A stretch of DNA of 35,792 nt from a virus. The DNA is taken from positions 1 through 35,792 of the IMG/VR virus record IMGVR_UViG_3300020186_000056. The stretch is one strand, 5' to 3'. Every line of letters begins with the position of its first letter. Within the stretch, counting starts at the first letter, position 1. Below the pieces are notes generated by a model. That model had not been told where the DNA came from. It searched no databases and saw nothing but the letters and a program-made list of their open reading frames with translations. The position numbers were made by a program, and so were the translations under genes. Shown piece by piece: positions 7,571 through 34,609 of this stretch.

Positions 7571-9567
7571 TGGCTGGACTTGACCGCGACCTTGCCGCCT
7601 TTTGCCGAACCAGAACCGAGGGCAGTATCTTCGATGTGGACGCGCAGGCTTCGATCGTTGTTGGCTACGACAGCATCGCGGCGGACGTGGGCAGTTACAA
7701 CCAAGGTTCGTTGTTCCGGGCGATGGTCCAGCGAGCGCCGTTCCCGCCCCAGAGCGACGGTTCGCCCGCGATTGTGAGCCTTGCGGGTACGGCCCAACCA
7801 TCAATTGCATCGACGTCAAGGGTGTTTCACGCCAAGACTAACACGAACGGATGGGGCGGTATCGCCGCCATGACTCCCGGCTCGGCCAACACGCTCCTCA
7901 ACGCGGTTGCTCCGGTTGCGGGCGATTCCATCAACTCGAACATGCCCTGCATCGAGTTCAGTTGGGCGAACGGTGCGACACTGACGGCCTTTGAGTTGAC
8001 AGGAAGCAACAATCTGTCAACTAGCGGGGTTGTGATGATCGTCATGCCGCACATCGACAGCGATCAACTCGGACCCGCTGGCGCAGAAGTGGCGTGGGGC
8101 AATCCCTTCGACGGAAGGCGGACTACAGGCCGAATGATTTCGATGGCGAAGTCCAACGGCGCACAGCAACTTTCGCTTCGCGGAATGCGACAGGCTGACA
8201 TGGGTTCTCTGGCGATGGCTTCCCAGGACCCCGCCGTTGGCACGTTCTTTGGGTTTCAGGGATCGGTCACGCGCACCAACTGGATTTCCGCCAACACGCC
8301 ATACAACGGGGCCGTTGACCCTATTGATCTTCTCGGCGCAAATCTCGTTGTCTATCACGATGTCGACTGCGCCGACACGCCAGGCAATCCCTCCTACGCA
8401 CTCTGTAATCCGTCGGCGACGGGTTCGGCCAACGTGAATGGCAGCGGCGCCGCCCGCAACCACTGTTATCTCGGGTCTCGGTTCTTCCGCCGCAGCGAAT
8501 CTTTTAGCGTCGGCACCCCCTTTCCAACGGGCATTCACTTTACAGGCTTCGGCGCGGCAGCCATGAACATGGGCCACATGATGACCATGCTCGGAGTCGC
8601 CAAATCTGGCGGCGACGACGCTTGGAGTCCCGATCCGTGGTTCTCGTCTGCCAATGCGGGGCTGCTCTTTCAATACATGGGCGGGATGGACGAGGCAAGC
8701 GGCAACTTCCCGAGCCACTTCATTTTCTACGACGGCCACAACATCAGCGGGGCGGAAAGCACTGAACTCACAGCAGGAACGATCACGCTCGCCACTTCGT
8801 ATCGCGTCCGAGTTATCAACGCGATTAAAGCAATGGCGGTGTTAGCGGCCGCTCCGGTTCCCAAGTTTCTCTTTGTCATCGCCGCGGCACACCGGAGCGG
8901 TAAAACCACCCGCCAGACTGATGCACTTCACCGGGCCATTGACGCGGCGGCGGCGGCAACCGGAAGCAGCGTTCTTGACATCTTCATCCGCACCAACACC
9001 GCGGCCTACGACGTGGTGGGCGCTCCCACCGCAACCCCGTGGGCCGCTTACATCGGGTTCGCTTCCAAGGGCGCGTCAATCAACAGCGTGGCCGTTGCCG
9101 CTGTCACCCCCGCATCGGCAACAAAGGCCAATCCCTGTGTTGTCACCGTTACCGCCGGCCACGGCATTCCGGCTGGCGAAAAGGTACCCGTCTTCTTTCA
9201 GGGCGCGGGCGGCGGCTCTCAAAACTCGTTTCTCACTGGCCCATCACTCGCAGGGCCGCACATCGCAACGTACGTCAGTGCAACCACGTTTTCCATCAAC
9301 CTCGATACGTCGGGTTCGGCAACGGGCGCAGGGGCCGCTGGCTCGTGCTACATCGGCCCGATGTCGGGCGGACACATCGCATCGGGCGATGCAACCCGCT
9401 ACCTCCACTCCGGCAATTATGGCATCAGCATGATCGCCGACATGATTTATGACACCCTTCAAATCGCAGACGGCAAACTGCCCGTGACCCGCTTCACCGG
9501 AGCAATCGGGTACAGCATCCCCGGACTCGGCGGCGTGCCGCCCATCCGAAACCGCAACAACTTCTAA
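7570..9567 (+). CDS. Large tail protein, possible fibre/spike with SGNH-hydrolase-like C-terminus
   Basis: The 665-aa protein has AAAGGAA upstream and a TAATG start. The middle to C-terminal half has 'FIFYDGHNISG', 'KFLFVIAAAHRSGKTTRQTDALHRAID' and, near the end, 'GDATRYLHSGNYGISMIADMIYDTL'. These resemble the spread of SGNH/GDSL esterase blocks, including a terminal Asp...His pair, but the N-terminal GDS block is not evident. Inserted at about residues 500-590 is a beta module (VTAGHGIPAGEKVPVFFQG ... ISYVSATTFSINL-like) of the FCCH-like kind common in phage tail proteins. A similar module occurs in the nozzle gene. Receptor binding or glycan deacetylation is a reasonable guess. Confidence 0.55.
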   Translation: MAGLDRDLAAFCRTRTEGSIFDVDAQASIVVGYDSIAADVGSYNQGSLFRAMVQRAPFPPQSDGSPAIVSLAGTAQPSIASTSRVFHAKTNTNGWGGIAAMTPGSANTLLNAVAPVAGDSINSNMPCIEFSWANGATLTAFELTGSNNLSTSGVVMIVMPHIDSDQLGPAGAEVAWGNPFDGRRTTGRMISMAKSNGAQQLSLRGMRQADMGSLAMASQDPAVGTFFGFQGSVTRTNWISANTPYNGAVDPIDLLGANLVVYHDVDCADTPGNPSYALCNPSATGSANVNGSGAARNHCYLGSRFFRRSESFSVGTPFPTGIHFTGFGAAAMNMGHMMTMLGVAKSGGDDAWSPDPWFSSANAGLLFQYMGGMDEASGNFPSHFIFYDGHNISGAESTELTAGTITLATSYRVRVINAIKAMAVLAAAPVPKFLFVIAAAHRSGKTTRQTDALHRAIDAAAAATGSSVLDIFIRTNTAAYDVVGAPTATPWAAYIGFASKGASINSVAVAAVTPASATKANPCVVTVTAGHGIPAGEKVPVFFQGAGGGSQNSFLTGPSLAGPHIATYVSATTFSINLDTSGSATGAGAAGSCYIGPMSGGHIASGDATRYLHSGNYGISMIADMIYDTLQIADGKLPVTRFTGAIGYSIPGLGGVPPIRNRNNF

Positions 9568-10937: not shown

Positions 10938-11539
10938 TGGCGACTCTCGGACTCACAAAACTCGGGGCGGTCAATCGGATGTTCTGGTGGGTGAACCAGT
11001 TCTCAGTGAGCGCCCTTGACACGGGCGGCACAAGCGATGCGGCAAAGATGGAAGAGTTCCTTGACCAGATCACGCTCAACACTCTCGCCCAGGGCCTCGC
11101 GTTCAACACCCAGCGGTGCAAGAGTTACACCCCGGCGGGTTCACCATACAAAATCACGCTCGCGTCAACCGTGCTTGCGGTTCGCGGGGCGGGCAACTGC
11201 GCCCACCGCCAGTTTGACGCTATCAGCGGTTTCGCCTTTGACATCGACCGATATTCCAACGAGTATCCCGATGCAACGGTCGTGATGCTGGACGTGATGA
11301 GCAACGTCGCCGCGTGGGATGACATTCCACCCGCAGCGAAAGAATACATCGCGTGGTGCGCGGCCCGCGGCTATCAACAGTGCAACAAGGGTTCGCCTCA
11401 GCACGACGAATGGCTCAGGCAACACTGCGAGAACGCATCACGGGCGGCGCGTCCGATCCGTGTTCTCCCCGGCGATGAACCGATGGGTGTTCAGCCTTAC
11501 GTTCCCGGCTCGCCGCCGCAGCAGCAGCAACAGCGATGA
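10937..11539 (+). CDS. Tail-operon protein with polyglutamine end
   Basis: The 200-aa protein starts in a TAATG overlap. It has a folded N-terminal 130 residues (FWWVNQFSVSALDTGGTSDAAKMEEFLDQITL..., 'AAKEYIAWCAARGYQQCNKG') and a Pro/Gln tail ending PPQQQQQR encoded by repeated CAG/CAA codons. It is comparable in size to tail tubular A, but no gp11 signature is seen. It is coupled to the nozzle gene by ATGA, so it may be a nozzle or adaptor accessory. The family is unknown to me. Confidence 0.65.
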   Translation: MATLGLTKLGAVNRMFWWVNQFSVSALDTGGTSDAAKMEEFLDQITLNTLAQGLAFNTQRCKSYTPAGSPYKITLASTVLAVRGAGNCAHRQFDAISGFAFDIDRYSNEYPDATVVMLDVMSNVAAWDDIPPAAKEYIAWCAARGYQQCNKGSPQHDEWLRQHCENASRAARPIRVLPGDEPMGVQPYVPGSPPQQQQQR

Positions 11540-13971
11540 ACACCGTAAACGACCGCGAGGTTCGGGTTTCCGTCCCGATGCTCTTTACCGGGATCAGCCA
11601 GCAGCCCGCCAACGTCCGACTCGCGTCACAGGTCCAGGACGCGAGCAACGTGGACTTCACCGTTGAGCACGGGGCAACCAAGCGGCCCTACACCAAGTTC
11701 TATCACAAGTTGAACCCGGCCCCGACCTCGGGCCGCGATGTTCGGCTCCACTCAATCGAACGCGATGAGAACGAGCGATATGTCATCGCCTATGGCGACG
11801 GCAACTTGCGGGTCTTTCAGGAAATGGGTGTTCAGCCCCCGGTTGTGATCGAGGCGGTTGTCACGACCAGCGCCAACGCTCAGACCTACCTCTCGGTGGT
11901 TGACGGCAAATCCATCGTGCTTGTGACGGTGAACGATTACACGTTCGTCATCAACACGACCGTTGCCACGGGCGTTACGACTTCCGCCGACTACCCGCTC
12001 ACCGCGACGTGGGACACCTTCGTGCGGATGACATCGCTCGCCCCGGTCGAAGATACCTATCACCGCACGCTCGGGGATTCGGAGGCGGCCAAGGCGGGCT
12101 ATTACAAGTATCACGCGGGTACACAGACTCCGGGCGTGCTTGTCACCCGCACCTCAGCCACCAAGCAGTATTCGACTCCCACGGGCCACTACGACGATCC
12201 AGCCCGCAACCCCGGCGGGTTTAGGATCGGTTTCCAGCGGCTTGCGATGGTCATTGCGGGGGGCACACTCGCCGTCTCGGGCACAAACTTCACGCTCACC
12301 AAGGTTGCGGCATTCACGGCCTACACCTTTGTTTTCGGCGACATGATTTATGTGCCAACCGGCACGGGTGTCACGGCGGGATGGGCGAAGATCATCTCGC
12401 GTGACTCAGCCGACCAACTCACCATCCAGGCAAGAGGGACAACGATTCTCGCGGCGTGCACCGATGCAACCACCGATGGGATCGGCGTTGAATACGACGT
12501 TGAAATCAATCTTGACCCCGCGGTGAACGCGACTCCCGCGGATATGTTCGGTGTCGCCGCGGCGTTTCAGGCCGCACTCCAAAAGGCCGGGTGTGCCGAT
12601 GGACTGATCGCGTGGACCACGGCCAAGCATCCAATCACCGGCACGGACGGCGGATACTTCCAGATCACCAGTCCCTACAAGGGGACCGATTCGGTTATCA
12701 AGAATATTTCAACGCCCGGAACGGCCATCTATGACTACACGGTTTTTGACGGTGCTCTGACCCCGTTCCTGTTCAGTGCGATCACGAGCAACACCGCAGG
12801 CACCGGCGGCAACCCGACCACACAGCAATCGGTGGGCCTTCGTTGGACCCGTGTTCCCGCCCCACTCCAATCGCAGGCCATCCCCGATGCGACCAAGATG
12901 CCGGTTCAGTTGGTCCGCAACTACGACGCGGTGTATCCGCCATTGACGATCAGCGGATGGACAGCGGCCAATCCCACCCAAGGCACGACCGCGGCCACCC
13001 ACGGATTCACCGATGGCCAAACAGTGGTCGTTGCGGGCGCGACGGGCGGCTCGCCAGGCACGATCAACGCAAGCCATATCGTCACCGTCACGGGCGCAAC
13101 CACCTTCACCGTTCCCGTGAACCTTTCGGGTGGAGCAGCGACGGGCGGCACGGTCTACGGGCGGGCCGGATTCACCTGTTCAACGATCACCTGGAACACG
13201 AGGCTCAGTGGAAACGAACTCACGAACAAGGCAGCTAAGCCCTTCACCGATGGTTTGACAATCACCGATGCGGTTGTGATTCAGGACCGCCTTGTGCTGG
13301 CCCTCGGCCAATACCTTGTGTTCTCGCAGAGCGGCGACCTCTTCGACTTCTACAACGAGGATGCGTTCAACATCGTCGATTCGGACCCGATCATCGCGCC
13401 ACTCGCGGCGAACCAGGTTGTGAACGTCAAGTTCATGGTGCCTTACCGCCAGTCGATTCTTGTGTTCACCTTCAACGGCGAACATTTCGATATTTCGTGG
13501 GATTCGGAACTCACCGCGACAAAGATTCGCGTCACGCCCGCGATCAAGTCTCAAACGTGGTCAACCCGGCCCGTGCGCGGTGATGATCGAATCTATTACA
13601 ACTCGGAGCGTGGAAGCTACGCCGAAGTCAACGAGTACCACTACGACGATTTAAGCACGCAGAACGTAGCGTTCCCGATCACGACCCACTGCCCGACGTT
13701 CGTTCCCCTGATGATCCGAACCATGTGCGTTGTCCGCACAGAGGGCGTGCTGCTTTTGCTCCCCGACGACAGCACGAAAATCTACTGCTACCGCTGGCAC
13801 TACTCGGGGAATCAGAAGGATCAATCGGCGTGGACCAAGTACGCTTTCGACACGAATTATCGAATCAGCGGCATGGCCCCCATCCGCAACTCGGTGTACC
13901 TGCTTGTGCAGGACGCTTCGCAGTGGACTATTGAGGCGATGGTCTATGAAGTGCCGGGAGACACCTTCTAA
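11536..13971 (+). CDS. Tail tubular protein B (nozzle), N-terminal main part, T7 gp12-like
   Basis: The 811-aa protein starts MNTVNDREVRVSVPMLFTGISQQPANVRLASQ, then 'NVDFTVEHGATKRPYTKF', the hallmark opening of the T7 gp12 family that makes the tail nozzle. Later blocks include 'GLRWTRVPAPLQ', 'LTITDAVVIQDRLVLALGQYLVFSQSGDLFDFYNED' and 'QSILVFTFNGEHFDISWDSELTATKIRVTPAI'. Near residues 470-545 is an inserted beta module ('THGFTDGQTVVVAGATGG ... ATTFTVPVNL') of FCCH-like type. It ends at VPGDTF, and the part that normally follows in gp12 is encoded by the next gene in another frame. Confidence 0.9.
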   Translation: MNTVNDREVRVSVPMLFTGISQQPANVRLASQVQDASNVDFTVEHGATKRPYTKFYHKLNPAPTSGRDVRLHSIERDENERYVIAYGDGNLRVFQEMGVQPPVVIEAVVTTSANAQTYLSVVDGKSIVLVTVNDYTFVINTTVATGVTTSADYPLTATWDTFVRMTSLAPVEDTYHRTLGDSEAAKAGYYKYHAGTQTPGVLVTRTSATKQYSTPTGHYDDPARNPGGFRIGFQRLAMVIAGGTLAVSGTNFTLTKVAAFTAYTFVFGDMIYVPTGTGVTAGWAKIISRDSADQLTIQARGTTILAACTDATTDGIGVEYDVEINLDPAVNATPADMFGVAAAFQAALQKAGCADGLIAWTTAKHPITGTDGGYFQITSPYKGTDSVIKNISTPGTAIYDYTVFDGALTPFLFSAITSNTAGTGGNPTTQQSVGLRWTRVPAPLQSQAIPDATKMPVQLVRNYDAVYPPLTISGWTAANPTQGTTAATHGFTDGQTVVVAGATGGSPGTINASHIVTVTGATTFTVPVNLSGGAATGGTVYGRAGFTCSTITWNTRLSGNELTNKAAKPFTDGLTITDAVVIQDRLVLALGQYLVFSQSGDLFDFYNEDAFNIVDSDPIIAPLAANQVVNVKFMVPYRQSILVFTFNGEHFDISWDSELTATKIRVTPAIKSQTWSTRPVRGDDRIYYNSERGSYAEVNEYHYDDLSTQNVAFPITTHCPTFVPLMIRTMCVVRTEGVLLLLPDDSTKIYCYRWHYSGNQKDQSAWTKYAFDTNYRISGMAPIRNSVYLLVQDASQWTIEAMVYEVPGDTF

Positions 13972-24239: not shown

Positions 24240-24385
24240 ATTTGCACGGCTTGGATCAAAGTTGGATCAATCACCCTGTTTCCAAGGGTGTAGAGGGGGT
24301 GTATTGGTTGGGGAAAGTGACTGGAAAGCGCCTAGAAAGCGAGTGTACGCACACGCGCGACGAACACGCACGCGCGACGGCCGAC

Positions 24386-24557
24386 GCTATGGCTATGGCT
24401 ATGTCGTCGTGGCTCTATGGTGGCTCTATGGCTATGGTGCTATGGCTATGGCTATGGCTATGGCTACGGCTCTATGGTGTCGTGGCTATGGCTCTATGGT
24501 GTCATGGTGTCACGGCACTATGTCGCTACGGCTCTATGCCGCTACGGCTATAGCTCT
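24386..24557. repeat. GGCTAT-type hexanucleotide microsatellite
   Basis: About 170 bp consist of GGCTAT units mixed with variants (GGCTCTAT, GGCTAC, GGTGTC). The longest uniform run is near 24441-24466. All three + frames give low-complexity peptides, so I read it as non-coding. It sits next to the minus-strand 24556-24804 gene. Arrays of this kind are prone to slippage, so the length may vary between copies. Confidence 0.85.
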
Positions 24558-24804
24558 AGTCTACGTTTTTGAGTCTGGCTGCTTGCCATGCTTTGCTGGC
24601 TCGGCCGGTAAACCGCGTGTTGTACATGTCCCTGGCAAGTTTGATAGCGTCGCCTGGGGGCATTCCGCGGCGGGCAACCATTTCATCCGCGACCCGTTTT
24701 ACCCAAGAATCAGCCTTTTTGTGGCTATTTACAGGCTTTCTGTAAGTTTCAAGGAAGGGAGATAGGCTTGGCTTGTCTTCGTCTTGGATGTGAGCTCCAG
24801 TCAA
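24556..24804 (-). CDS. Small basic protein, minus strand, unknown function
   Basis: The frame gives up to 82 aa from a TTG at 24804 with no clear SD, so the true start may be internal. The C-terminal half is the most protein-like: 'ADSWVKRVADEMVARRGMPPGDAIKLARDMYNTRFTGRASKAWQAARLKNVD', a helical, basic region. It is divergent from the small-gene row, with the LacI-type operator in the gap. It could be a regulator, but no helix-turn-helix can be shown. No family is recognised. Confidence 0.5.
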   Translation of the reverse strand: MTGAHIQDEDKPSLSPFLETYRKPVNSHKKADSWVKRVADEMVARRGMPPGDAIKLARDMYNTRFTGRASKAWQAARLKNVD

Positions 24805-25003: not shown

Positions 25004-25032
25004 TTGATTAGTCTCCGATACTATGGTATCAT
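25004..25032 (+). promoter_or_regulatory. Sigma70-like promoter for the small-gene row
   Basis: TTGATT (25004-25009), a 17-bp spacer and TATCAT (25027-25032) form a good housekeeping-type promoter in AT-rich DNA. The expected start of transcription is near 25039, so the RNA would begin almost exactly at the first structured leader (CAGATACGC...). No equally good promoter is seen before the later leaders, so the row may be one operon. Confidence 0.6.
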
Positions 25033-25033
25033 T

Positions 25034-25107
25034 ATCGCAGATACGCAAGCCTCGGCGATACGAGGCAGTCAAAAAGACTCGGCTAAGCCGAAAGGAACCA
25101 GGAACCC
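25034..25107 (+). promoter_or_regulatory. Type I structured leader, copy 1
   Basis: This copy has stem A GCCTCG/CGAGGC (25049-25054, 25061-25066) and stem B TCGGC/GCCGA (25079-25083, 25087-25091), then AAGGA and AGGA before the ATG. Both stems differ in sequence from the other copies yet remain paired. The pseudoknot partner TACGC (25042-25046) pairs only in part with the loop (GCGATA). Confidence 0.65.
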
Positions 25108-25518
25108 ATGACACAGACACAAACCGCCTCGGACTTCATCTGTTACAAGTACGATGCAACAAAGTACATCCGCCCGAACACCCTGTGCCGAAAACTGGGC
25201 CTCACAGTCTTAGCCGTTTACGCCTGCGATCGAAACAGGATGATCGACGGTTGCGGCATTAGCCCGGCAGCATACGACATGATCTTCCTTTATTACACCA
25301 CCGCCGGGCCGTACCCAGAAAATGACTCGGACAGGGAGGCGTTGGCGGAGGAACTCATGGGGTTCGGCCCCATCTACGAACCCGAAATTTACCTTTACCG
25401 CCTTCGCGAAGAAAACATCGTCAGGGCCTGGGGTATCGAAGAGTGCATCGACGAGGAAGCATGGGACGAACTCGTGGAACGGGTTACGGATTACTGGCGG
25501 TCAAATCCGCCTCTCTGA
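25108..25518 (+). CDS. Acidic small protein, unknown function
   Basis: This 136-aa protein is the first gene after the promoter. Residues 10-45 (FICYKYDATKYIRPNTLCRKLGLTVLAVYACDRNRM) look folded. The C-terminal half is acidic and rich in E, D, Y and W (EELMGFGPIYEPEIYLYRLREENIVRAWGIEECIDEEAWDELVERVTDYW). Small acidic proteins of this kind are common among phage host-takeover or anti-defence proteins, but I see no specific motif. The repeated 3' module follows the stop. Confidence 0.75.
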   Translation: MTQTQTASDFICYKYDATKYIRPNTLCRKLGLTVLAVYACDRNRMIDGCGISPAAYDMIFLYYTTAGPYPENDSDREALAEELMGFGPIYEPEIYLYRLREENIVRAWGIEECIDEEAWDELVERVTDYWRSNPPL

Positions 25519-25641
25519 CCCTCTCTCACCCTCCCATGAAAATAGGCGGGCGGGATTTTCGGAATCGCAGATACGCAAACCCCCAGCGTAAACAGGGGGA
25601 GTTTGAACAGACCCGGCAATGCCGGAAGGAACAAGGAACCC
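25519..25641 (+). promoter_or_regulatory. 3' module plus type I structured leader, copy 2
   Basis: The 3' module is a C-rich run and hairpin CCCTCCC/GGGCGGG (25529-25535, 25548-25554) with GAAA in the loop, then TTTT. The leader pseudoknot pairs TACGC (25572-25576) with GCGTA (25586-25590), interleaved with CCCCC (25580-25584) and GGGGG (25595-25599). Stem B is CCGGC/GCCGG (25613-25617, 25621-25625), followed by AAGGA and AAGGA before the ATG. Confidence 0.7.
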
Positions 25642-25959
25642 ATGAAAACCAACAACAACACAACCCCTTCCGCCCCCGCAGACGACTTCGGCTGGTTTGC
25701 AATTGAAGCAAACAACGCAGGCACCTACTACGGTTTTGGGCATGAAACCGAAGCACAGGCGTACGCCGCGAAACTCAACAAGACGCGGGAGTACGACCAC
25801 TACTCCCCTCATTTCCTCGGCGAAACAGACGAGGAAGCAACCGAAGCCGCCGGCTGCTGTGACATCACCGCCGAAGGGTTCTTGCTCGAAGACGCCGAAG
25901 CCAACGAAGACCCCGAAGACCCCGAAGACGCCGAAGACGCCGAAGACGCCGAAGACTAA
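25642..25959 (+). CDS. Small protein of a duplicated family, acidic repeat tail
   Basis: The start is ATG 25642, given by the leader SD; an upstream in-frame start runs through stem B. The 105-aa product begins MKTNNNT. It then has the domain 'FGWFAIEANNAGTYYGFGHETEAQAYAAKLNKTREYDHYSPHFLGETDEEATEAAG' (residues 16-71) and ends in EDPEDPEDAEDAEDAED encoded by a 9-bp tandem repeat. The domain recurs at about two-thirds identity in the gene at 26827. The family is not known to me. The Asn-rich start is shared with other genes of the row. Confidence 0.75.
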   Translation: MKTNNNTTPSAPADDFGWFAIEANNAGTYYGFGHETEAQAYAAKLNKTREYDHYSPHFLGETDEEATEAAGCCDITAEGFLLEDAEANEDPEDPEDAEDAEDAED

Positions 25960-26078
25960 CCCTCTCTCACCCTCCCCCCAGCGAAAGCAGGCGGGGCGGA
26001 TTGTCGGATACGTAAGCCCCGACGTAAACAGGGGGAGTTCAGATACGACCCGGCAATGCCGGAAGGAACAAGGAACCG
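25960..26078 (+). promoter_or_regulatory. 3' module plus type I structured leader, copy 3 (compensatory change)
   Basis: The pseudoknot strand here is TACGT (26009-26013) with partner ACGTA (26022-26026): the C-G pair of the other copies has become T-A, so pairing is kept. CCCC (26017-26020) pairs with GGGG (26031-26034). Stem B is CCGGC/GCCGG (26050-26054, 26058-26062). The preceding 3' module hairpin has a C-GAAA-G loop. Confidence 0.75.
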
Positions 26079-26231
26079 ATGCAAACTAGCATGGAAGCGG
26101 AGTTAATTTACTGGGTGCTCAAGAAAACCCCAACTGCGCAGTACGCCGCGGTTCTCTTGCGATTGCTGCGCGAGCATCGGATGAGCATCATGCTCGAAGT
26201 TGCCGCGCTCATTGAAGAAAGGGGTACATAA
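26079..26231 (+). CDS. 50-aa protein, unknown function
   Basis: The ATG at 26079 follows the copy 3 leader SD (AAGGAACAAGGAACC). The product, MQTSMEAELIYWVLKKTPTA and on to LIEERGT, is 50 aa and likely two amphipathic helices with hydrophobic faces (AAVLLRLLREHRMSIMLEVAALIEE). It overlaps the next start by TAATG, the only tight overlap inside the row, so the two products may act together. Too short for most gene callers, but the leader, start and codon composition support it. Confidence 0.65.
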   Translation: MQTSMEAELIYWVLKKTPTAQYAAVLLRLLREHRMSIMLEVAALIEERGT

Positions 26232-26728
26232 TGGGACTTTCAGATACTGGCACCACAAGCCAACGCCAAGAAGAAGCGCGAGCCAACACAGACAAAATTA
26301 CCGCCGGACAACTGGCACAAACCATGCGTAACGCCGGGCTGGACGTTACCGCCGAAGAACTTAAACCGCACGCCACCGAGTGGCATCACGCGGGATTCCT
26401 GCCCAATGGGCGCGGCATGGGCAAGTGTTATTGGTTCAAGGAGCAAACGTACAAGGAACAGTGGGTACTGTACACAAAAGTTCTCGAAGCTCGTGAAGCG
26501 GCCTCCGCTCCTCGCTACGGGTGGAAGGTCGATTTCACGACCAGCCGAGGAACCTACGGGAAAAAAAAGTACCAGCCAATCTCTTGCGTGCAAGAGTTTG
26601 CGCCGGGTGAAACCATGACGGAAAAATGGGAACAGCTCACCATCGAAGACTACCAAAAACTTCTCCCCCACAACGGTGCAAAACTTTTGCCCTACGAATC
26701 TTTGGAATCGTTCAAGAAACGCATCTAG
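26231..26728 (+). CDS. Unknown protein coupled to the 50-aa gene
   Basis: This 165-aa protein has AAAGGGG upstream and a TAATG start. The N-terminus is charged and polar. A folded middle (ITAGQLAQTMRNAGLDVTAEELKPHATEWHHAGFLPNGRGMGKCYWF, residues 23-69) looks like a small helical DNA- or protein-binding unit with conserved-looking His/Trp. The C-terminal half has 'WVLYTKVLEAREAA' and 'KKKYQPISCVQEFAPGETM'. No catalytic motif is recognised. It lies in the accessory row, so host interaction is possible but unproven. Confidence 0.7.
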   Translation: MGLSDTGTTSQRQEEARANTDKITAGQLAQTMRNAGLDVTAEELKPHATEWHHAGFLPNGRGMGKCYWFKEQTYKEQWVLYTKVLEAREAASAPRYGWKVDFTTSRGTYGKKKYQPISCVQEFAPGETMTEKWEQLTIEDYQKLLPHNGAKLLPYESLESFKKRI

Positions 26729-26739
26729 AACGATTGTTC

Positions 26740-26826
26740 GTCTTGCATCCTCTCTCACTCTTCCCCCCATGAAAATAGAGGGGAGGGCTTGTCGGATTGT
26801 TCGCAAAACTTTACAAGGGATAAACG
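26740..26826 (+). promoter_or_regulatory. 3' module plus type II leader, copy a
   Basis: The C-rich/GAAA hairpin is present, but the pseudoknot and stem B are not. Instead a 50-nt block (26785-26834) through the first codons is identical to 27260-27309. It contains CTTGT...ACAAG, which could pair around 20 nt and lies directly before the AAGGGAT SD. Confidence 0.65.
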
Positions 26827-27222
26827 ATGAACGCAAAGCCCACGCCCTCCACCTTTCCGACATACGTACAGCTTACCGCCCTGCTTGTCAAAGCCAAGGC
26901 CTGTAGTATCGTGGCGGAGAGCCTCACGCCCAAGGCAGCTGCGGTAACTGCCGAGATTGACGCCGCCCTCGCCGCCCTCACCGCCAAACCTTCCGGACCC
27001 GCATACCAATTTGGTTGGTGGGCAATTAAAGCCAACAACGCCGGAGCCCATTATGGGTTTGGCTATGAAGATGAAGCGATGGAGTACGCCGCCAAACTTA
27101 ACAAAAAGCGGGAGTACGACCGCTACTCGCCTACGTTCCTGGGCGAGACAGACGCGGAAGCAACCGAAGCCGCCGGAGTGCCTGACATCACGACCGAGGG
27201 TGTGGACTTCATCGACGCCTAA
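26827..27222 (+). CDS. Paralogue of the 25642 protein with a helical N-terminus
   Basis: This 131-aa protein has an N-terminal helical part (residues 12-55, VQLTALLVKAKACSIVAESL... AALAALTAK). Then comes 'FGWWAIKANNAGAHYGFGYEDEAMEYAAKLNKKREYDRYSPTFLGETDAEATEAAG' (from about residue 62), about two-thirds identical to the domain in the 25642 gene. The acidic repeat tail is absent. The pair shows domain duplication within the row. Its leader is type II rather than type I, so coding domain and leader have been exchanged independently. Function unknown. Confidence 0.75.
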   Translation: MNAKPTPSTFPTYVQLTALLVKAKACSIVAESLTPKAAAVTAEIDAALAALTAKPSGPAYQFGWWAIKANNAGAHYGFGYEDEAMEYAAKLNKKREYDRYSPTFLGETDAEATEAAGVPDITTEGVDFIDA

Positions 27223-27301
27223 CCCTCTCTCACTCTTCCCCCCATGAAAGTAGGGGGCAGGGCTTGTCGGATTGTTCGCAAAACTTTACAAGGGATAAAC
27301 G
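27223..27301 (+). promoter_or_regulatory. 3' module plus type II leader, copy b
   Basis: The block 27260-27309 is identical over 50 nt to 26785-26834, including the AAGGGAT SD and the first codons ATGAACGC. The upstream C-rich run and the ATGAAAGTA loop of the 3' module are also shared. Confidence 0.65.
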
Positions 27302-27685
27302 ATGAACGCCGCTCGAAAACTCGACCCAAAAACCAATCTTGAACGCGCAGTGGCGCGCTGGCTCAACAGCAAAGCCAAAGACTACAAAACAGGGTTACGC
27401 GGCGTGCTGAAAGATTTAGAGAACGGCTGCGAATCCGGGATCGTCTCCCACCTCATCTACACAAAAGATACCGTCGCGTTCTACAAACGCCACCGCCTCG
27501 AAATCTGCGAACTGGTAACGGAGTACGTGAACCGGAACTACGCAGACAGCCCATCCCAACTGTTCACGGCAGGCCGTTGGGACAAAGAGGATCCATTTGC
27601 GCTTGAGGATGGCAACCAAAACCTGCTGGCATGGTTCGCCTTTGAAGAGAAGGCATGGGTTCTCGGCACCCGTGCCGGGATGTGA
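27302..27685 (+). CDS. DUF7222-like small protein
   Basis: This 127-aa protein contains 'TNLERAVARWLNSKAKDYKTGLRGVLKDLENGCESGIVSHLIYTKDTVAFYKRHRLEICELVTE' (residues 11-75), which resembles, from memory, a domain of unknown function seen in phage and mobile-element proteins (DUF7222-type). The C-terminal part 'QNLLAWFAFEEKAWVLGTRAGM' may form an extra helix. No catalytic residues are assigned. Expression is set by the type II leader shared with the preceding gene. Confidence 0.75.
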   Translation: MNAARKLDPKTNLERAVARWLNSKAKDYKTGLRGVLKDLENGCESGIVSHLIYTKDTVAFYKRHRLEICELVTEYVNRNYADSPSQLFTAGRWDKEDPFALEDGNQNLLAWFAFEEKAWVLGTRAGM

Positions 27686-27822
27686 AATTTGACCCTCCCT
27701 CCGCCCTCCGTGAAAGCGGCGTGCGGGGTTTACCGCGACCCATATGTAGGTGGGCGCACAGTTTGGGCCGGCGCTCTGTAAAGCCCGGCCCTTGGCTCAC
27801 CCTAAAATTGGAAGGGCGAACG
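27686..27822 (+). promoter_or_regulatory. Unlike leader before the AAA+ gene (type III)
   Basis: It keeps a C-rich run with a GAAA loop near 27713-27716 but lacks the type I pseudoknot. It has two other stems: GCGACCCA / TGGGCGC (27736-27756) and GGGCCGG / CCGGCCC (27764-27790). GGAAGGG lies just before ATG 27823. It may be a diverged member or an independent leader. Confidence 0.45.
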
Positions 27823-28473
27823 ATGAATAGTAGCAAGAGACTGTTTGAGAAGTACCGACCGTCCGTTCTTTCCGATGTTGTCGGCCAAGACAAAGCCGTC
27901 GCTGTCGTTCGCCGCATCATCGACCAAGGTGCTGGCGGGCGCGCGGTGTGGCTGTCGGGAACGTCCGGTTCGGGCAAAACTACTCTGGCCCGGATCATCG
28001 CCCATTCCATCGCCGATCCATTTTTCGTGGAAGAATGCGTAGCCGATGAACTCGGCGTCGAACGTCTCGACGGTTGGATTCGTTCGATGCGTTTGTGCTC
28101 ATGGGGCAAGGGTGGGCGCGCATTCATCGTGAATGAGGCCCACGGGCTTCGAGCCGTGATTCAACGCCGTTTGGATGGACTTTTGGAAGAGGATTTGCCC
28201 GGTCATTGTGTTGTGATTTTCACAACTACCTGGGACGGCCAAGAGGCAATGTTCGACGGGATTGATGCGGGGCCGCTGCTGTCCCGCTGCACTCCAATTC
28301 GTCTTACCAACCAAGGTCTTGCGCAAGCGTTCGCCGAGCGTGCCTTGACCATCGCCCGAACCGAGAACCTCGACGGGCAGCCGATCGCCGCGTATGTCAA
28401 ACTCGCCAAGCGGTGCAATAACAACATGAGAGCCATGTTGCAAGAGATTGACGCGGGGTGCATGATTGAATGA
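27823..28473 (+). CDS. Clamp-loader-like AAA+ ATPase (RFC small subunit/DnaX type), short form
   Basis: The start is ATG 27823 by the SD. The 216-aa protein opens with FEKYRPSVLSDVVGQ (8-22), the hallmark of RFC small subunit and DnaX clamp loaders. Walker A is GTSGSGKT (46-53). Walker B is FIVNEAH (101-107), with Asn in place of the usual first acid. The SRC motif is at 154-156. It stops near the end of the AAA+ lid, so the C-terminal collar used for pentamer assembly is absent; typical RFC subunits have about 320 aa. It may load a clamp, or act alone on a host clamp loader. No clamp gene is seen here. Confidence 0.85.
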   Translation: MNSSKRLFEKYRPSVLSDVVGQDKAVAVVRRIIDQGAGGRAVWLSGTSGSGKTTLARIIAHSIADPFFVEECVADELGVERLDGWIRSMRLCSWGKGGRAFIVNEAHGLRAVIQRRLDGLLEEDLPGHCVVIFTTTWDGQEAMFDGIDAGPLLSRCTPIRLTNQGLAQAFAERALTIARTENLDGQPIAAYVKLAKRCNNNMRAMLQEIDAGCMIE

Positions 28474-28610
28474 TTTGGGCCTAACCCTCTCTAACCCTCC
28501 CCCCCATGAAAGTAGGCGGGTGGGCTTCTCGGAATCACAGATACGCAAGCCCCCGGCGTAAACAGGGGTAGTTTGAACAGACCCGGCAATGCCGGGAGAA
28601 GGATCACGCC
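28474..28610 (+). promoter_or_regulatory. 3' module plus type I structured leader, copy 4
   Basis: The C-rich/GAAA hairpin (about 28496-28524) is followed by the pseudoknot TACGC (28542-28546) with GCGTA (28556-28560), interleaved with CCCC (28551-28554) and GGGG (28565-28568). Stem B CCCGGC/GCCGGG (28582-28587, 28591-28596) runs directly into GGGAGAAGGATC, so part of the SD lies in the stem. Confidence 0.75.
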
Positions 28611-28889
28611 ATGAAAAAACTGTACCGCACCGAGCCTTATCAGTGGCGCGACTACGGGGGCGGAAAGCCCGCCGATGGTGATTGTCATTGGGGGGCGGTG
28701 TTTGAGGGCAGGGTCGCCGCGGACGAGGCCGCCAGCGAGTTTGACGGGGGCTACCTGTGCGATGTGTTTTTGGCGGACGATCTGGACGTTGAAATTGCCC
28801 TGCGCGGCGAGAAATACTACGGATCGCCCACACATCCGCGAGTTGTTGCGGCAAAACTCCGCATCGCCGCCGACCCGGACAACTTCTAA
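28611..28889 (+). CDS. Small acidic protein, unknown function
   Basis: The 92-aa product (MKKLYRTEPYQWRDYGGGKPADGD...) has 'GAVFEGRVAADEAASEFDGGYLCDVFLADDLDVEIALRGEKYYG' (28-71) and ends AADPDNF. It is acidic and probably a compact alpha/beta fold. The last codons (CCGGACAACTTCTAA) match the end of the 30222 gene (CCGGACAACCTCTAA), so the repeated 3' module reaches into the coding end. No family is recognised. Confidence 0.7.
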   Translation: MKKLYRTEPYQWRDYGGGKPADGDCHWGAVFEGRVAADEAASEFDGGYLCDVFLADDLDVEIALRGEKYYGSPTHPRVVAAKLRIAADPDNF

Positions 28890-29013
28890 CCCTCTCTCAC
28901 CCTTCCCCCCATGAAAGTAGGGGGTGGGGCTTGTCGGAATCACAGATACGCAAGCCCCGGCGTAAACAGGGGTAGTTTCACAAAGACCCGACAATCGGGA
29001 GAAGGATCATGCC
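28890..29013 (+). promoter_or_regulatory. 3' module plus type I structured leader, copy 5 (compensatory stem B)
   Basis: The pseudoknot is TACGC (28947-28951) with GCGTA (28960-28964), and CCCC (28955-28958) with GGGG (28969-28972). Stem B is CCCGA/TCGGG (28987-28991, 28995-28999) instead of CCCGGC/GCCGGG: both strands changed together. SD GGGAGAAGGATC follows. Confidence 0.75.
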
Positions 29014-30102
29014 ATGACACTCAACAACAACAATGCCGATGCCAAGGCCCGTTTGAAAGCGAGCGTCGCCGCCGCGATCACCGCGATCACCGAGGCCATC
29101 GCCACGGGCATCGCCGCGGACATCGCCGCCGCACCCCCACCCCCGGCGAAAGCAGCGGGGGCGCTCGTACTTCGCACGTGCGATAAAAACATGCAAGGCT
29201 ACGGGGGCTTTCAATGGCCCACAAACGGCGAAGTTTCCGCGCCAGACTGGAACTCAAAGGTGGTCTGCGGAAACGGGTTGCACGGGTTGCTATGGGGCAA
29301 CGGCAGTAGCGTTAATCTCTCTAGAGAGAGGGACGCAAAGTGGCTCGTTTGTGAAGTTGACCCTGCCACCTGCATTGACCTTGACGGCAAGGTGAAATTT
29401 CAGACGTGCAACGTGATCGCCGTCTACGACAACATGGCCGAGGCGATCACGAGAATCGTGTTTGATCCCAGATACCCGCAGCCAAACACCGAAGAGATCG
29501 CATCGGGCGACTACAGCTCAGCAACAAATACCGGAGCCTCCAGCAAAGCGACAAGTAGCGGCACATACAGCACAGCCGTAAGTAGCGGTACATACAGCAA
29601 AGCGATAAGTAACGGAGACTTCAGCAAAAGTTCAAGCAGCGGAGACTCTGGCAAAGCTTCAAGTGTCGGAGACTACACCATAACGGCGAGTATCGGCACA
29701 TTCAGCTCGGCGGCGAGTAGCGGCAAATTCAGCTCAGCATCGAGTAACGGCATCTCCAGCAAAGCTTCAAGTGTCGGAGACTCAAGCTCGGCATGGAGTA
29801 ACGGCATCTCCAGCAAAGCTTCAAGTGTCGGAGACTCAAGCTCGGCGTCGAGTAGCGGGACCTCCAGCTTAGCGGCGAGTAACGGAGACTACAGCAAAAG
29901 TTCAAGTAGCGGTGCCTCTGGTATTGCCGCCGCTTGTGGATGTGAAACGTGGGTCAAGGCCGGGCCGCTGGGATGTATTTTCGCTACCGAGTGGGTCGCG
30001 GCGGAAAAACGATACCGCGGCGCGGTCGGGCACGTCGGCGAAAACGGCGTGAAAGCAGACACTTGGTATCGGTGTGTTGCCGGACAGTTGGTAGAAAAAT
30101 GA
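29014..30102 (+). CDS. Repeat protein with sixteen 9-residue units (DUF7666-like), chimeric N-terminus
   Basis: The 362-aa protein has three parts. Residues 1-45 (MTLNNNNADAKARLKASVAAAITAI...) resemble the start of the 30222 protein. Residues 50-164 (LVLRTCDKNMQGYGGFQWPTNGEV..., 'CGNGLHGLLWGNG') and the C-terminal 54 residues are nearly identical to the gene at 33824. Between them, residues 165-308 are sixteen G-x-x-S-x-A-S-S-x units encoded by 27-bp repeats (29506-29937), which should form a regular beta-solenoid like ice-nucleation-type repeats. The role may be binding or surface display; this is inference. The paralogue outside the inverted repeats has nine units. Confidence 0.8.
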   Translation: MTLNNNNADAKARLKASVAAAITAITEAIATGIAADIAAAPPPPAKAAGALVLRTCDKNMQGYGGFQWPTNGEVSAPDWNSKVVCGNGLHGLLWGNGSSVNLSRERDAKWLVCEVDPATCIDLDGKVKFQTCNVIAVYDNMAEAITRIVFDPRYPQPNTEEIASGDYSSATNTGASSKATSSGTYSTAVSSGTYSKAISNGDFSKSSSSGDSGKASSVGDYTITASIGTFSSAASSGKFSSASSNGISSKASSVGDSSSAWSNGISSKASSVGDSSSASSSGTSSLAASNGDYSKSSSSGASGIAAACGCETWVKAGPLGCIFATEWVAAEKRYRGAVGHVGENGVKADTWYRCVAGQLVEK

Positions 30103-30221
30103 CTCACCCCGCTCCTCGCTTACCAGCGGGGGCGGGATTTTCGGAATCGCAGACAACGCAAGCCCCCGGCGTAAACAGGGGTAGTTTCACAGACCCGGCC
30201 AAGCCGGGAGAAGGATCAACA
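30103..30221 (+). promoter_or_regulatory. Type I structured leader, copy 6
   Basis: The pseudoknot strand is ACGC (30156-30159) with GCGT (30169-30172), and CCCC (30164-30167) with GGGG (30178-30181). Stem B is CCCGGC/GCCGGG (30194-30199, 30203-30208) with a CAA loop, then GGGAGAAGGATC. The upstream 3' module is diverged (ACCAGCGGGGGCGGG). Confidence 0.7.
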
Positions 30222-30536
30222 ATGACAGTCAACAACAACAATGCCACTGATTCCAAGGCCAGGTGGGAAGCGAGCATCGCGGGCATTACCGCCGCGATCA
30301 CCGCGGCCATCGCAGCGGACATCACCATGCACGTAGCGAAGTACAAGCCGGACAATCCCAGGTGGAAAGCGGACGTCGCCGCGAGCATTGCGAACATCGC
30401 GGCGATGCTCGCGGCGAACATTACCGAGGACATCACCGACGAGACAATTGAGACGAGCATCGCCGCGAACAAGGCGGCCCAGGCCAAGTGGAAAGCATCT
30501 TTCGCCGCGGTCGCCGGCGGCCCGGACAACCTCTAA
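30222..30536 (+). CDS. Alanine-rich helical repeat protein with Asn-rich start
   Basis: The start is ATG 30222 by the leader SD. The 104-aa product begins MTVNNNNATDSKARW and has about three related helical units (ARWEASIAGITAAITAAIAADI, PRWKADVAASIANIAAMLAANI, AKWKASFAAVAGG), each opening with a Trp and carrying spaced Ile/Val. Such units suit amphipathic helices that could lie on membrane or bundle. It ends GGPDNL, like the PDNF end of the 28611 product. The N-terminus is shared with the 29014 gene. No known family. Confidence 0.7.
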   Translation: MTVNNNNATDSKARWEASIAGITAAITAAIAADITMHVAKYKPDNPRWKADVAASIANIAAMLAANITEDITDETIETSIAANKAAQAKWKASFAAVAGGPDNL

Positions 30537-30612
30537 CCCTCTCGCAAAGCAAGCCCCCGGCGTACACAGGGGTAGTCAAAAAGACCCGACAGACTCGGGA
30601 GAAAGATCGAAA
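30537..30612 (+). promoter_or_regulatory. Type I structured leader, copy 7 (shortened)
   Basis: The 5' part and the 3' module are mostly missing, so the pseudoknot strand keeps only about three pairs. CCCC (30555-30558) and GGGG (30569-30572) remain. Stem B is CCCGA/TCGGG (30585-30589, 30595-30599) with a 5-nt loop, followed by GGGAGAAAGATC. Confidence 0.6.
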
Positions 30613-30882
30613 ATGACACACAACAACAACAACAACAACAACGCCGCCGCCGCCGCCGAGGCATTGGCTGCGGCCTTGGTTGCGGACGCGGCCTATGCCA
30701 AGACCAAGGCTGCCGACAAGGCCAAGACCGCCGCCCTTCATATCGCGCTTCTGACCGCGTGCAAGGAACTGGTTGCATTGTGGGAACTCGAAGGCGGGCT
30801 TTATCTTAAATCAGACAGCCCATCTATTCAGCGGGCACGCGCCGCAATCGCCGCCGCCACCGCCGAAAGCAAAGTGGTCTAG
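30613..30882 (+). CDS. Asn-rich-start, alanine-rich helical protein
   Basis: The 89-aa product begins MTHNNNNNNNAAAAAEALAAALVADAAYAKTKAADKAKTAALHIALLTACKELVALWELEGG. The run of seven Asn (AAC codons) and five Ala (GCC codons) is a longer version of the MTxNNNN start seen at 29014 and 30222. The rest is predicted to be one or two helices. No TM is certain. No function can be assigned. Confidence 0.65.
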   Translation: MTHNNNNNNNAAAAAEALAAALVADAAYAKTKAADKAKTAALHIALLTACKELVALWELEGGLYLKSDSPSIQRARAAIAAATAESKVV

Positions 30883-32832: not shown

Positions 32833-32846
32833 GCCCTCACCAAGAA

Positions 32847-32920
32847 TTGCGAATGCAAGATTTGAACTTGCGACCTCCACATTATGAGCGTGGCGAGATA
32901 CCGGGCTTCTCCAATCCGCG
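32847..32920 (-). tRNA. tRNA-Met (CAT anticodon), initiator-like features
   Basis: A 74-nt cloverleaf can be folded by hand on the minus strand: acceptor CGCGGAT/ATTCGCA; D stem GAGA/TCTC with GG in the loop; anticodon stem CCACG/TGTGG with loop CTCATAA; 5-nt variable region; T stem GCAAG/CTTGC with loop TTCAAAT; discriminator A, no encoded CCA. Bases 1 and 72 are C and A (unpaired) and pair 11-24 is A-U, both marks of bacterial initiator tRNA. The three G-C pairs expected at the bottom of the initiator anticodon stem are absent, so an elongator Met or an Ile tRNA with modified C34 is also possible. Confidence 0.85.
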
Positions 32921-33003
32921 ACAAATAATAGGCACGGCCCGCGCCAAAGGGACGGGCGTACCCGCAAATCCACTATCAAAAAAACATTTTCAAACATTTC
33001 TGC

Positions 33004-33473: not shown

Positions 33474-33827
33474 ATGACAGAACCAGCGACCATCCCAGTC
33501 CAACGTGATCCACTACGCCAATATCACACCGCCCAAACGAAGCGAGTCCTCGACAGGATGTTGAACGACATCCGCGAGAAGGTCATCTTCGGCGTAGAGG
33601 AAGTGATGGCGTGCAAGGTGGAACCCGCCACCGAACCCGACGAGCACGACAGGCTCACCGATCTCTTTCTCGGCAACGAGATTTCCAACCGCGTGCCTGA
33701 CATCGCAATGTGGTTCAGGAAAGACAACGTGCGATGGGTGGCGAAGGGAAAGAGTGGCGTGTCGCCCGACCTTGACCAGGCGATCCGCGACGTGGCACTT
33801 GCGATGTTGGAAGTGGAGGACAAATGA
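33474..33827 (+). CDS. Unknown small protein before the repeat-protein gene
   Basis: The start is ATG 33474 with GGAGG at 33465-33469; the in-frame ATG at 33369 lacks an SD. The 117-aa product has a helical N-terminal half (RQYHTAQTKRVLDRMLNDIREKVIFGVEEVMA), a charged linker, and 'ISNRVPDIAMWFRKDNVRWVAKGKSGVSPDLDQAIRDVALAMLEVED'. It overlaps the 33824 gene by ATGA, so the two are co-translated. No family is recognised. Confidence 0.7.
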   Translation: MTEPATIPVQRDPLRQYHTAQTKRVLDRMLNDIREKVIFGVEEVMACKVEPATEPDEHDRLTDLFLGNEISNRVPDIAMWFRKDNVRWVAKGKSGVSPDLDQAIRDVALAMLEVEDK

Positions 33828-34609
33828 CCAATCAAGAGGCTGTTCCAGCGGTCGCACTCGTACTTCGCACGTGCGATAAAAACATGCAAGGCTACGGGGG
33901 CTTTCAATGGCCCACAAGCGGTGAAGTTTCTGCACCCGACTGGAAATCAAAGGTGGTCTGCGGAAACGGATTGCACGGGTTGCTGTGGGGCAACGGCAGT
34001 AGCGCTAATCTCTCTAGAGAGAGGGACGCAAAGTGGCTCGTTTGTGAAGTTGACCCGACCACATGCGTTGACCTTGACGGCAAGGTGAAATTTCCAAGAT
34101 GCAACGTAGTAGCCGTCTACGACAACATGGCCGAGGCGATCACGAGAATCGTGTTTGATCCCAGATACCCGCATCCAAACACCGAAGGGATCGCATCGGG
34201 CACATACGGCACAGCGGCAAGTAGAGGCACCTCCAGCTCAGCGTCGAGTAGCGGCGACTACAGCAAAGCGGCGAGTAGCGGCATCTCCAGCTCAGCGGCA
34301 ACTATCGGCGAATCCAGCACAGCGTCGAGTAGCGGCATCTCCAGCACAGCGTCGAGTAGCGGCAACTCCAGCACAGCGTCAAGTAGCGGCAACTCCAGCA
34401 CAGCGTCAAGTAGCGGTGCCTCTGGCATTGCAGCCGCCTGTGGATGTGAAACTTGGGCAAGGGCCGGGCCGCTGGGATGTATTTTCGCTACCGAGTGGGT
34501 CGCGGCGGAAAACCGATACCGCGGCGCGGTCGGATACATCGGGGAGAACGGCGTGAAAGCAGACACTTGGTATCGGTGTGTTGCCGGACAGTTGGTGGAG
34601 GCCAAATGA
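33824..34609 (+). CDS. Repeat protein with nine 9-residue units (DUF7666-like)
   Basis: The 261-aa protein is a paralogue of the 29014 gene. The 'RTCDKNMQGYGGFQWPT...CGNGLHGLLWGNG' domain (residues 14-125) and the C-terminal 'CGCETWARAGPLGCIFATEW...TWYRCVAGQLVE' domain are nearly identical to it. Between them lie nine units of G-x-S-S-x-A-S-S-S (residues 126-206, bases 34199-34441). The Asn-rich N-terminal helix is missing, so this looks like the basic form. The repeats should form a beta-solenoid. It is placed between a small unknown gene and the nuclease, both coupled by ATGA, so it is part of the early operon. Confidence 0.8.
   Translation: MTNQEAVPAVALVLRTCDKNMQGYGGFQWPTSGEVSAPDWKSKVVCGNGLHGLLWGNGSSANLSRERDAKWLVCEVDPTTCVDLDGKVKFPRCNVVAVYDNMAEAITRIVFDPRYPHPNTEGIASGTYGTAASRGTSSSASSSGDYSKAASSGISSSAATIGESSTASSSGISSTASSSGNSSTASSSGNSSTASSSGASGIAAACGCETWARAGPLGCIFATEWVAAENRYRGAVGYIGENGVKADTWYRCVAGQLVEAK

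Follow-up and report, generated by a model that had tools for sequence, protein, structure and literature searches.

A recurrent predicted pseudoknot leader before accessory genes of a phage contig, with a possible role in translation initiation

Introduction

Small H-type pseudoknots near the Shine–Dalgarno (SD) sequence, with an A-rich loop 3, form the preQ1-I and SAM-II riboswitches, and in the HK022 put antiterminator RNA two structures lie side by side close to a phage promoter. In a 2010 review the T4-type gene 32 pseudoknot was considered perhaps the sole viral one that serves translational autoregulation (PMC3014915). Here we describe a structured leader of about 70 nucleotides (nt), with a predicted H-type pseudoknot, that precedes seven genes of a phage known from environmental DNA, virus record IMGVR_UViG_3300020186_000056; the whole stretch analysed (positions 1 to 35,792 of the record) is termed the window, and the leaders lie at 25034–30612.

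Pseudoknots that activate translation initiation have been described as rare examples, among them one in the timP leader (PMC11295053). A 5' pseudoknot in tisB is required for binding of the 30S subunit and ribosomal protein S1 and for translation, and S1 binds in vitro-selected pseudoknots as well as those of tmRNA, preQ1 and rpsO (PMC7708055). The triplet ACA, which enhances translation, was found in the loops of S1-selected pseudoknots (PMC3879156).

Results

Location and anatomy of the leaders

An earlier reading made from the DNA letters alone (the sequence-only reading) had proposed seven leaders with the strand order a-b-a'-b' and an additional hairpin, stem B, at the SD sequence. All seven were recovered where it had placed them, before the genes at 25108, 25642, 26079, 28611, 29014, 30222 and 30613, and every copy was on the coding strand in the same orientation. 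The analyses below cover nine full copies, namely these seven and two from a second phage. From 5' to 3' the order of elements is hairpin A, a short conserved linker, strand a, AA, strand b, 0–2 nt, strand a', loop 3, strand b', a spacer, stem B, the SD tract and ATG. The pseudoknot is compact (about 24–28 nt) and is followed by a spacer of 11–15 nt, stem B (5–6 bp with a loop of 3–5 nt) and, in all nine copies, 13–16 nt between stem B and ATG that hold the SD sequence; the distance from the start of the pseudoknot to ATG was 65–69 nt, again in nine of nine.

Copy 1 (25034–25107; all copies are on the + strand) has its pseudoknot at 25043–25066 (CGC/GCG; GCCTCG/CGAGGC) and stem B at 25079–25091 (TCGGC/GCCGA), followed by the SD tract and gene 25108. 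In copy 2 (25564–25641, gene 25642) the pseudoknot spans 25572–25599 (TACGC/GCGTA; CCCCC/GGGGG) and stem B 25613–25625, and in copy 3 (26001–26078, gene 26079) they span 26009–26034 (TACGT/ACGTA; CCCC/GGGG) and 26050–26062. Copy 4 (28534–28610, gene 28611) combines a pseudoknot at 28542–28569 (TACGC/GCGTA; GCCCC/GGGGT) with stem B at 28582–28596 (CCCGGC/GCCGGG), and copy 5 (28939–29013), which precedes the DUF7666 gene at 29014, combines one at 28947–28973 with stem B at 28987–28999 (CCCGA/TCGGG). The corresponding elements of copy 6 (30144–30221, gene 30222) are at 30156–30182 (ACGC/GCGT; GCCCC/GGGGT) and 30194–30208. Copy 7 (30541–30612, gene 30613) is truncated; hairpin A is lost and strand a is broken (AAAGC), and b/b' and stem B (30585–30599) are kept.

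The variants of stem B were those listed by the sequence-only reading. Its description of the other elements (TACGC/GCGTA, CCCC/GGGG and an AACA linker) held for most copies and needed amendment for the rest. The a/a' helix has 5 bp in copies 2–5 only; it is reduced to 4 bp in copy 6 and 3 bp in copy 1 and is essentially broken in copy 7 (AAAGC/GCGTA), whilst b/b' is CCCC/GGGG in all copies but copy 1. Loop 3 reads AACA in copies 2–6, CACA in copy 7 and both full copies of the second phage, and AUA(C) in copy 1, so that eight of the nine carry AACA or CACA. The AA of loop 1 and the ACA of loop 3 were strongly conserved, and mean identity across the leader was highest in the pseudoknot (84 %), followed by the spacer (73 %), the ribosome-binding site (RBS) tract (66 %) and the upstream part (63 %). 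The spacer may hold a short third hairpin (GUY...GAC) of only 3–4 bp that hardly varies.

The modules of the leader are separable. Pseudoknot and stem B occur together in copies 1 and 7, hairpin A accompanies them in copies 2–6 and in the two full copies of the second phage, stem B stands alone in a partial copy of the second phage and hairpin A stands alone before genes of the type found at 26827 and 27302.

Evidence for the predicted folds

An H-type search with stacking energies returned the proposed pseudoknot in eight of the nine copies; in each of these, no more than 3 of 200 dinucleotide shuffles scored equally. The dimensions in these eight were those of H-type pseudoknots (stem 1, 3–5 bp; stem 2, 4–6 bp; loop 1, 2–3 nt; loop 2, 0–2 nt; loop 3, 3–5 nt), which bears out the strand order of the sequence-only reading; with its broken a strand, copy 7 could not form the pseudoknot in this energy search. 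The loose architecture (4 + 4 bp) was by itself not rare, as three chance cases were found on the control strand, and the strength of the case therefore comes from the repetition of the element, its fixed distance from ATG and the covariation of stem B.

Stem B is supported by covariation. Compensatory changes were present at two of its pairs, a score reached by 1 of 500 shuffles (here and below, such covariation counts are no probabilities, as the copies are related), and 92.5 % of its cells were paired, compared with at most 50 % in slid versions. Pairing kept through change, which had been claimed for the whole leader, thus stands for stem B; for the pseudoknot it rests on one compensatory change per helix, U-A for C-G in a/a' of copy 3 and U-A for C-G in b/b' of copy 1, with copy 7 broken. 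When copy 1 was left out, 87.5 % of the pseudoknot cells in the remaining eight copies were paired, compared with at most 56 % in slid versions. With copy 1 included by hand alignment, the covariation score was reached by 50 of 5000 shuffles and the number of cells changed on both sides by 65 of 5000. The pseudoknot is thus suggested by conservation, folding energy and these two compensatory changes.

Relation to the translation start

The core SD sequence (AAGGA or similar) begins 0–3 nt after stem B and was mostly predicted to be unpaired in contexts of both 70 and 150 nt. In the later copies, only the GGG preceding AGAAGGA falls within stem B. The proposal that translation is controlled by an SD sequence hidden in stem B was therefore not upheld, since the core lies outside the stem and only flanking bases of the later copies are paired.

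The similarity between leader-bearing genes fades within the first ~6 codons. As a protein comparison showed their products to be mostly unrelated to one another, the reused unit appears to be the translation-initiation region, and the fixed spacing and orientation relative to ATG tie it to start codons and not to promoters. The same comparison and geometry bear out the earlier view of a structured leader reused before mostly unrelated coding sequences. The first ~6 codons were rich in A and C (57–100 % A+C, compared with 55 % for the region), and ACA and AAC triplets numbered 107 in the leaders and first codons, compared with 81 ± 6 in shuffles, the copies not being independent.

A second phage and the search for homologues

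As the sequence-only reading had recommended, a covariance model was built from the seven window leaders (R1) and searched. Within the window it found only the seven copies (72.9–98.8 bits). Two more full copies (71.9 and 62.2 bits) were found in a second phage contig of 55 kb, IMGVR_UViG_3300015360_002570, together with a partial copy at 12077–12150 (30.2 bits) that comprises stem B and the SD sequence only. DUF7666, DUF7222 and 26827-type genes are common to both phages; the second also has a weak DNA polymerase A match, which was not seen among the scanned genes of the window.

The structured leader family, which the sequence-only reading had not been able to match to a known element, is absent from Rfam: a search of Rfam 15 gave no family at the gathering cut-off, and when E-values up to 5 were admitted the region yielded nothing but unrelated chance matches. 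No credible further homologue was found in viral contigs, phage records, plasmids, genome contigs searched by pattern or ~590 bacterial genomes searched with the model. Exact patterns across the viral contigs led only to the one second phage, and three pattern matches in genome contigs lacked the leader architecture. When the DUF7666, DUF7222, terminase and 26827-type proteins were used as queries, they led back to the second phage, gave no match, or led to 41 other loci that lack the leader. A weak match in L022 was a promoter-like TTGACA sequence without a pseudoknot. The model gave one chance-level match, without a pseudoknot, among 291 genomes from the phylum of an Armatimonadetes metagenome-assembled genome and 299 of another phylum, blanks that say little since the host was not identified. 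As far as these collections show, the family appears to be narrow in distribution.

Hairpin A, a second leader and a predicted promoter

Hairpin A, which the sequence-only reading had overlooked, is GC-rich, mostly carries a GAAA-type loop (or UACC) and follows the preceding gene. It was found on the + strand before copies 2 (25529–25554, GC-rich, tip AUGAAAAU), 3 (25970–25999, a compensated version with tip GCGAAAGC), 4 (28495–28524), 5 (28900–28929) and 6 (30107–30136, a different sequence with a CGCT-UACC-AGCG tip), and also before the genes at 26827 (26758–26787) and 27302 (27233–27262), both of which have a different, pseudoknot-free leader. Its covariation did not reach significance. A leader peptide was considered and rejected: ATGAAAGTA in hairpin A resembles a start codon, but it has no SD sequence, is replaced by GCGAAAGC in copy 3 and is lost in copy 6.

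The pseudoknot-free leader, with GGATTGTTCGCAAAACTTTACAAGGGATAAACG before ATGAACGC at 26797–26826 and 27272–27301, is itself reused in company with hairpin A. Its copies before the two genes of the window share 97 % identity over 86 nt, and leaders of this second type also stand before the orthologous genes of the second phage, at about 11036–11065 and 12410–12449.

A host-type sigma-70 promoter was predicted on the + strand at 25004–25032 (TTGATT-17-TATCAT, with TG before the -10 element), which places the predicted transcript start of copy 1 at about 25039–25040. As this promoter ends at 25032 and the 5' edge of the conserved unit is at 25034, the mRNA of copy 1 would begin at the pseudoknot.

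The accessory-gene block

The window encodes T7-like portal, head, tail and terminase genes and a tyrosine integrase. Small accessory genes form a block at 25.1–30.9 kb, and seven of them carry the pseudoknot leader. Their products are mostly acidic or near neutral (pI 4.1–7.9); those of copies 5 and 6 have an Ala-rich N-terminal stretch in common. No match to RNA-binding families, including single-strand binding proteins, was obtained among the products of the leader genes, and no pathway or metabolic theme common to these genes was seen.

Between the two phages the accessory block is mosaic, in gene segments as well as in leaders. The gene at 30613–30882 has a near-identical stretch at 8680–8830 of the second phage, in a different gene context and beside other exchanged segments. 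The DUF7666 proteins encoded at 29014–30102 and 33824–34609 are paralogues in which a 9-residue unit (27 nt in the DNA) is repeated in a long series; the pseudoknot leader and an additional Asn/Ala-rich N-terminus are found with one of them and are both absent from the other. Several stop codons of the block are followed immediately by a stretch rich in C/T and poor in G (TAACCCTCTCTCACCC), for example at 25957–25975, which could be a Rho-type site or merely the 5' arm of hairpin A. Outside the block, low-complexity GGCTAT and GGCTCTATGG units occupy 24380–24560, between the terminase region and the block, and a tRNA-Met gene (32846–32921, - strand), which may be an attachment site or a tRNA that the phage carries, lies ~0.6 kb after the integrase gene.

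Discussion

A possible translation-initiation leader

The most likely function of the pseudoknot leader, with a probability of about 0.4, would be that of a portable translation-initiation leader for phage genes. The pseudoknot would fold in the mRNA, and its ACA-bearing loop 3 may be where ribosomal protein S1 and the 30S subunit dock. Ribosomes would in this way be loaded beside the SD sequence, which stem B would set off and keep out of long-range pairing. In copy 1 the predicted promoter would make the pseudoknot the first element of the mRNA, where it might also guard the message against decay; internal copies could gain the same protection once the mRNA is cut between hairpin A and the pseudoknot. 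As a result, a set of small accessory proteins of the phage would be expressed strongly and uniformly. This reading agrees with the fixed register to ATG in nine of nine copies, the high conservation of the pseudoknot, the A/C-rich first codons with their excess of ACA and AAC, the mostly unpaired core SD sequence, the partial copy that retains stem B and the SD sequence alone, the mostly unrelated products, and the S1-binding and initiation-activating pseudoknots cited above. In a broader reading, which is possible though somewhat doubtful, the leaders would constitute a post-transcriptional regulon, the one leader before seven mostly unrelated genes and in the second phage being read in trans by one factor, either S1 or a protein of the phage, that switches or boosts the genes together.

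Several results weigh against an initiation role. The covariation of the pseudoknot is weak: without copy 1 it showed no excess over shuffles (200 of 500), because most pairs never vary. Opening of the RBS was no greater than with shuffled upstream sequence, and lower in most of the later copies, in a test that ignores pseudoknots and counted stem B bases as RBS. Copy 7, which has lost a/a', and the copy at 12077 of the second phage, which has lost the pseudoknot, each still precede an open gene, so that the pseudoknot is not strictly needed. Loop 3 of copy 1 lacks ACA, and the suggested docking depends on the S1 protein of the host. The promoter scan behind the proposed 5' end of copy 1 is weak alone, with 3 sites found and 2.4 expected in the region.

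Alternative explanations

The chief rival, which we consider rather unlikely, is that the pseudoknot is an operator: an RNA-binding protein of the phage or its host would attach to it and repress translation of the gene set, or set its timing, in trans. The T4 gene 32 pseudoknot, bound by gp32, lies 67 nt upstream of the start codon (PMC3014915), and the distance here is 65–69 nt; moreover, the conserved AA of loop 1 and ACA of loop 3 would suit recognition by a protein, and one site before several unrelated genes resembles a regulon. Nevertheless, no candidate regulator was found among the mostly acidic or near-neutral leader-gene products, which match no RNA-binding family, and the segment from pseudoknot to RBS, an unstructured A+U-rich tract in T4, here holds the GC-rich stem B. 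It is unlikely, too, that the unit serves primarily in mRNA stability, with hairpin A guarding the upstream 3' end, pseudoknot and stem B guarding the new 5' end after processing between them and the hairpin, and any effect on translation being indirect. The placement of hairpin A after the preceding gene before copies 2–6, 26827 and 27302 agrees with this, as do the coincidence of the predicted start of copy 1 with the 5' edge of the unit and the T4 gene 32 mRNA, which RNase E cleaves at -71 and which surpasses all other T4 mRNAs in stability (PMC3014915). The covariation of hairpin A is below significance, however, two genes have the hairpin without the pseudoknot, and stability by itself does not account for the fixed ATG spacing. 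A stability role, alone or combined with one in initiation, would possibly explain hairpin A and the 5'-end position.

That the leader is a repeat spread by shuffling of genes and leaders, its structure inherited and not selected, is improbable. The mosaic exchange of segments and leaders between the two phages, the two degraded copies and the invariance of most pseudoknot pairs would fit such an origin, but stem B pairing was kept through compensatory change, a/a' and b/b' each show one such change, conservation is higher in the pseudoknot than around it and the leader was kept whilst the downstream genes are mostly unrelated. Least probable of all is a metabolite riboswitch, which the sequence-only reading had entertained. 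The element is compact and conserved, and preQ1-I and SAM-II are likewise small pseudoknots; against this, there is no match in Rfam, no metabolic theme among the genes and, apart from the pseudoknot loops, nothing that resembles a conserved aptamer core, neither helix sequesters the SD sequence, and the leader was found in only two phage contigs and in none of the ~590 bacterial genomes searched. The two other functions named by that reading, a protein-binding element or a translation enhancer, remain the best readings. Three further candidates were rejected or disfavoured. The stems are inverted repeats as in a DNA operator, but both arms change, b/b' crosses a/a', and strand and ATG distance are constant; put-like antitermination is disfavoured by the start-codon register; and the recurring layout of gene and spacer suggested integron attC-type sites, but inspection by eye showed no attC core motif.

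Comparison with known systems

One pseudoknot leader before seven genes would provide a natural variant series for the roles of the pseudoknot, the ACA loop and the RBS hairpin, and the leader might be useful as a portable expression leader. The element differs from preQ1-I and SAM-II in that b' does not contain the SD sequence and that there is neither an aptamer consensus nor an Rfam match; it differs from HK022 put in that all copies are anchored to a start codon and only copy 1 lies near a predicted promoter. The gene 32 leaders of T4, T2 and RB69 are likewise phage leaders that hold an H-type pseudoknot, some 67 nt ahead of the start codon (PMC3014915), a distance also found here. Gene 32, however, has one site, an A+U-rich tract and autoregulation by gp32, whereas here there are seven sites, a stem B beside the SD sequence in place of an unstructured A+U-rich tract and no regulator, gene-encoded binding protein included, was found. 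With timP the leader would share a pseudoknot that activates initiation, although timP has a small RNA antitoxin partner (PMC11295053), of which there is no evidence here. The tisB and rpsO leaders also carry a pseudoknot with a proposed role in 30S/S1 loading (PMC7708055, PMC3858243). The RBS of tisB is sequestered, with the standby site ~100 nt away, and in rpsO S15 acts as a repressor, whereas the leaders described here are predicted to have an open RBS and form a unit that recurs before many genes.

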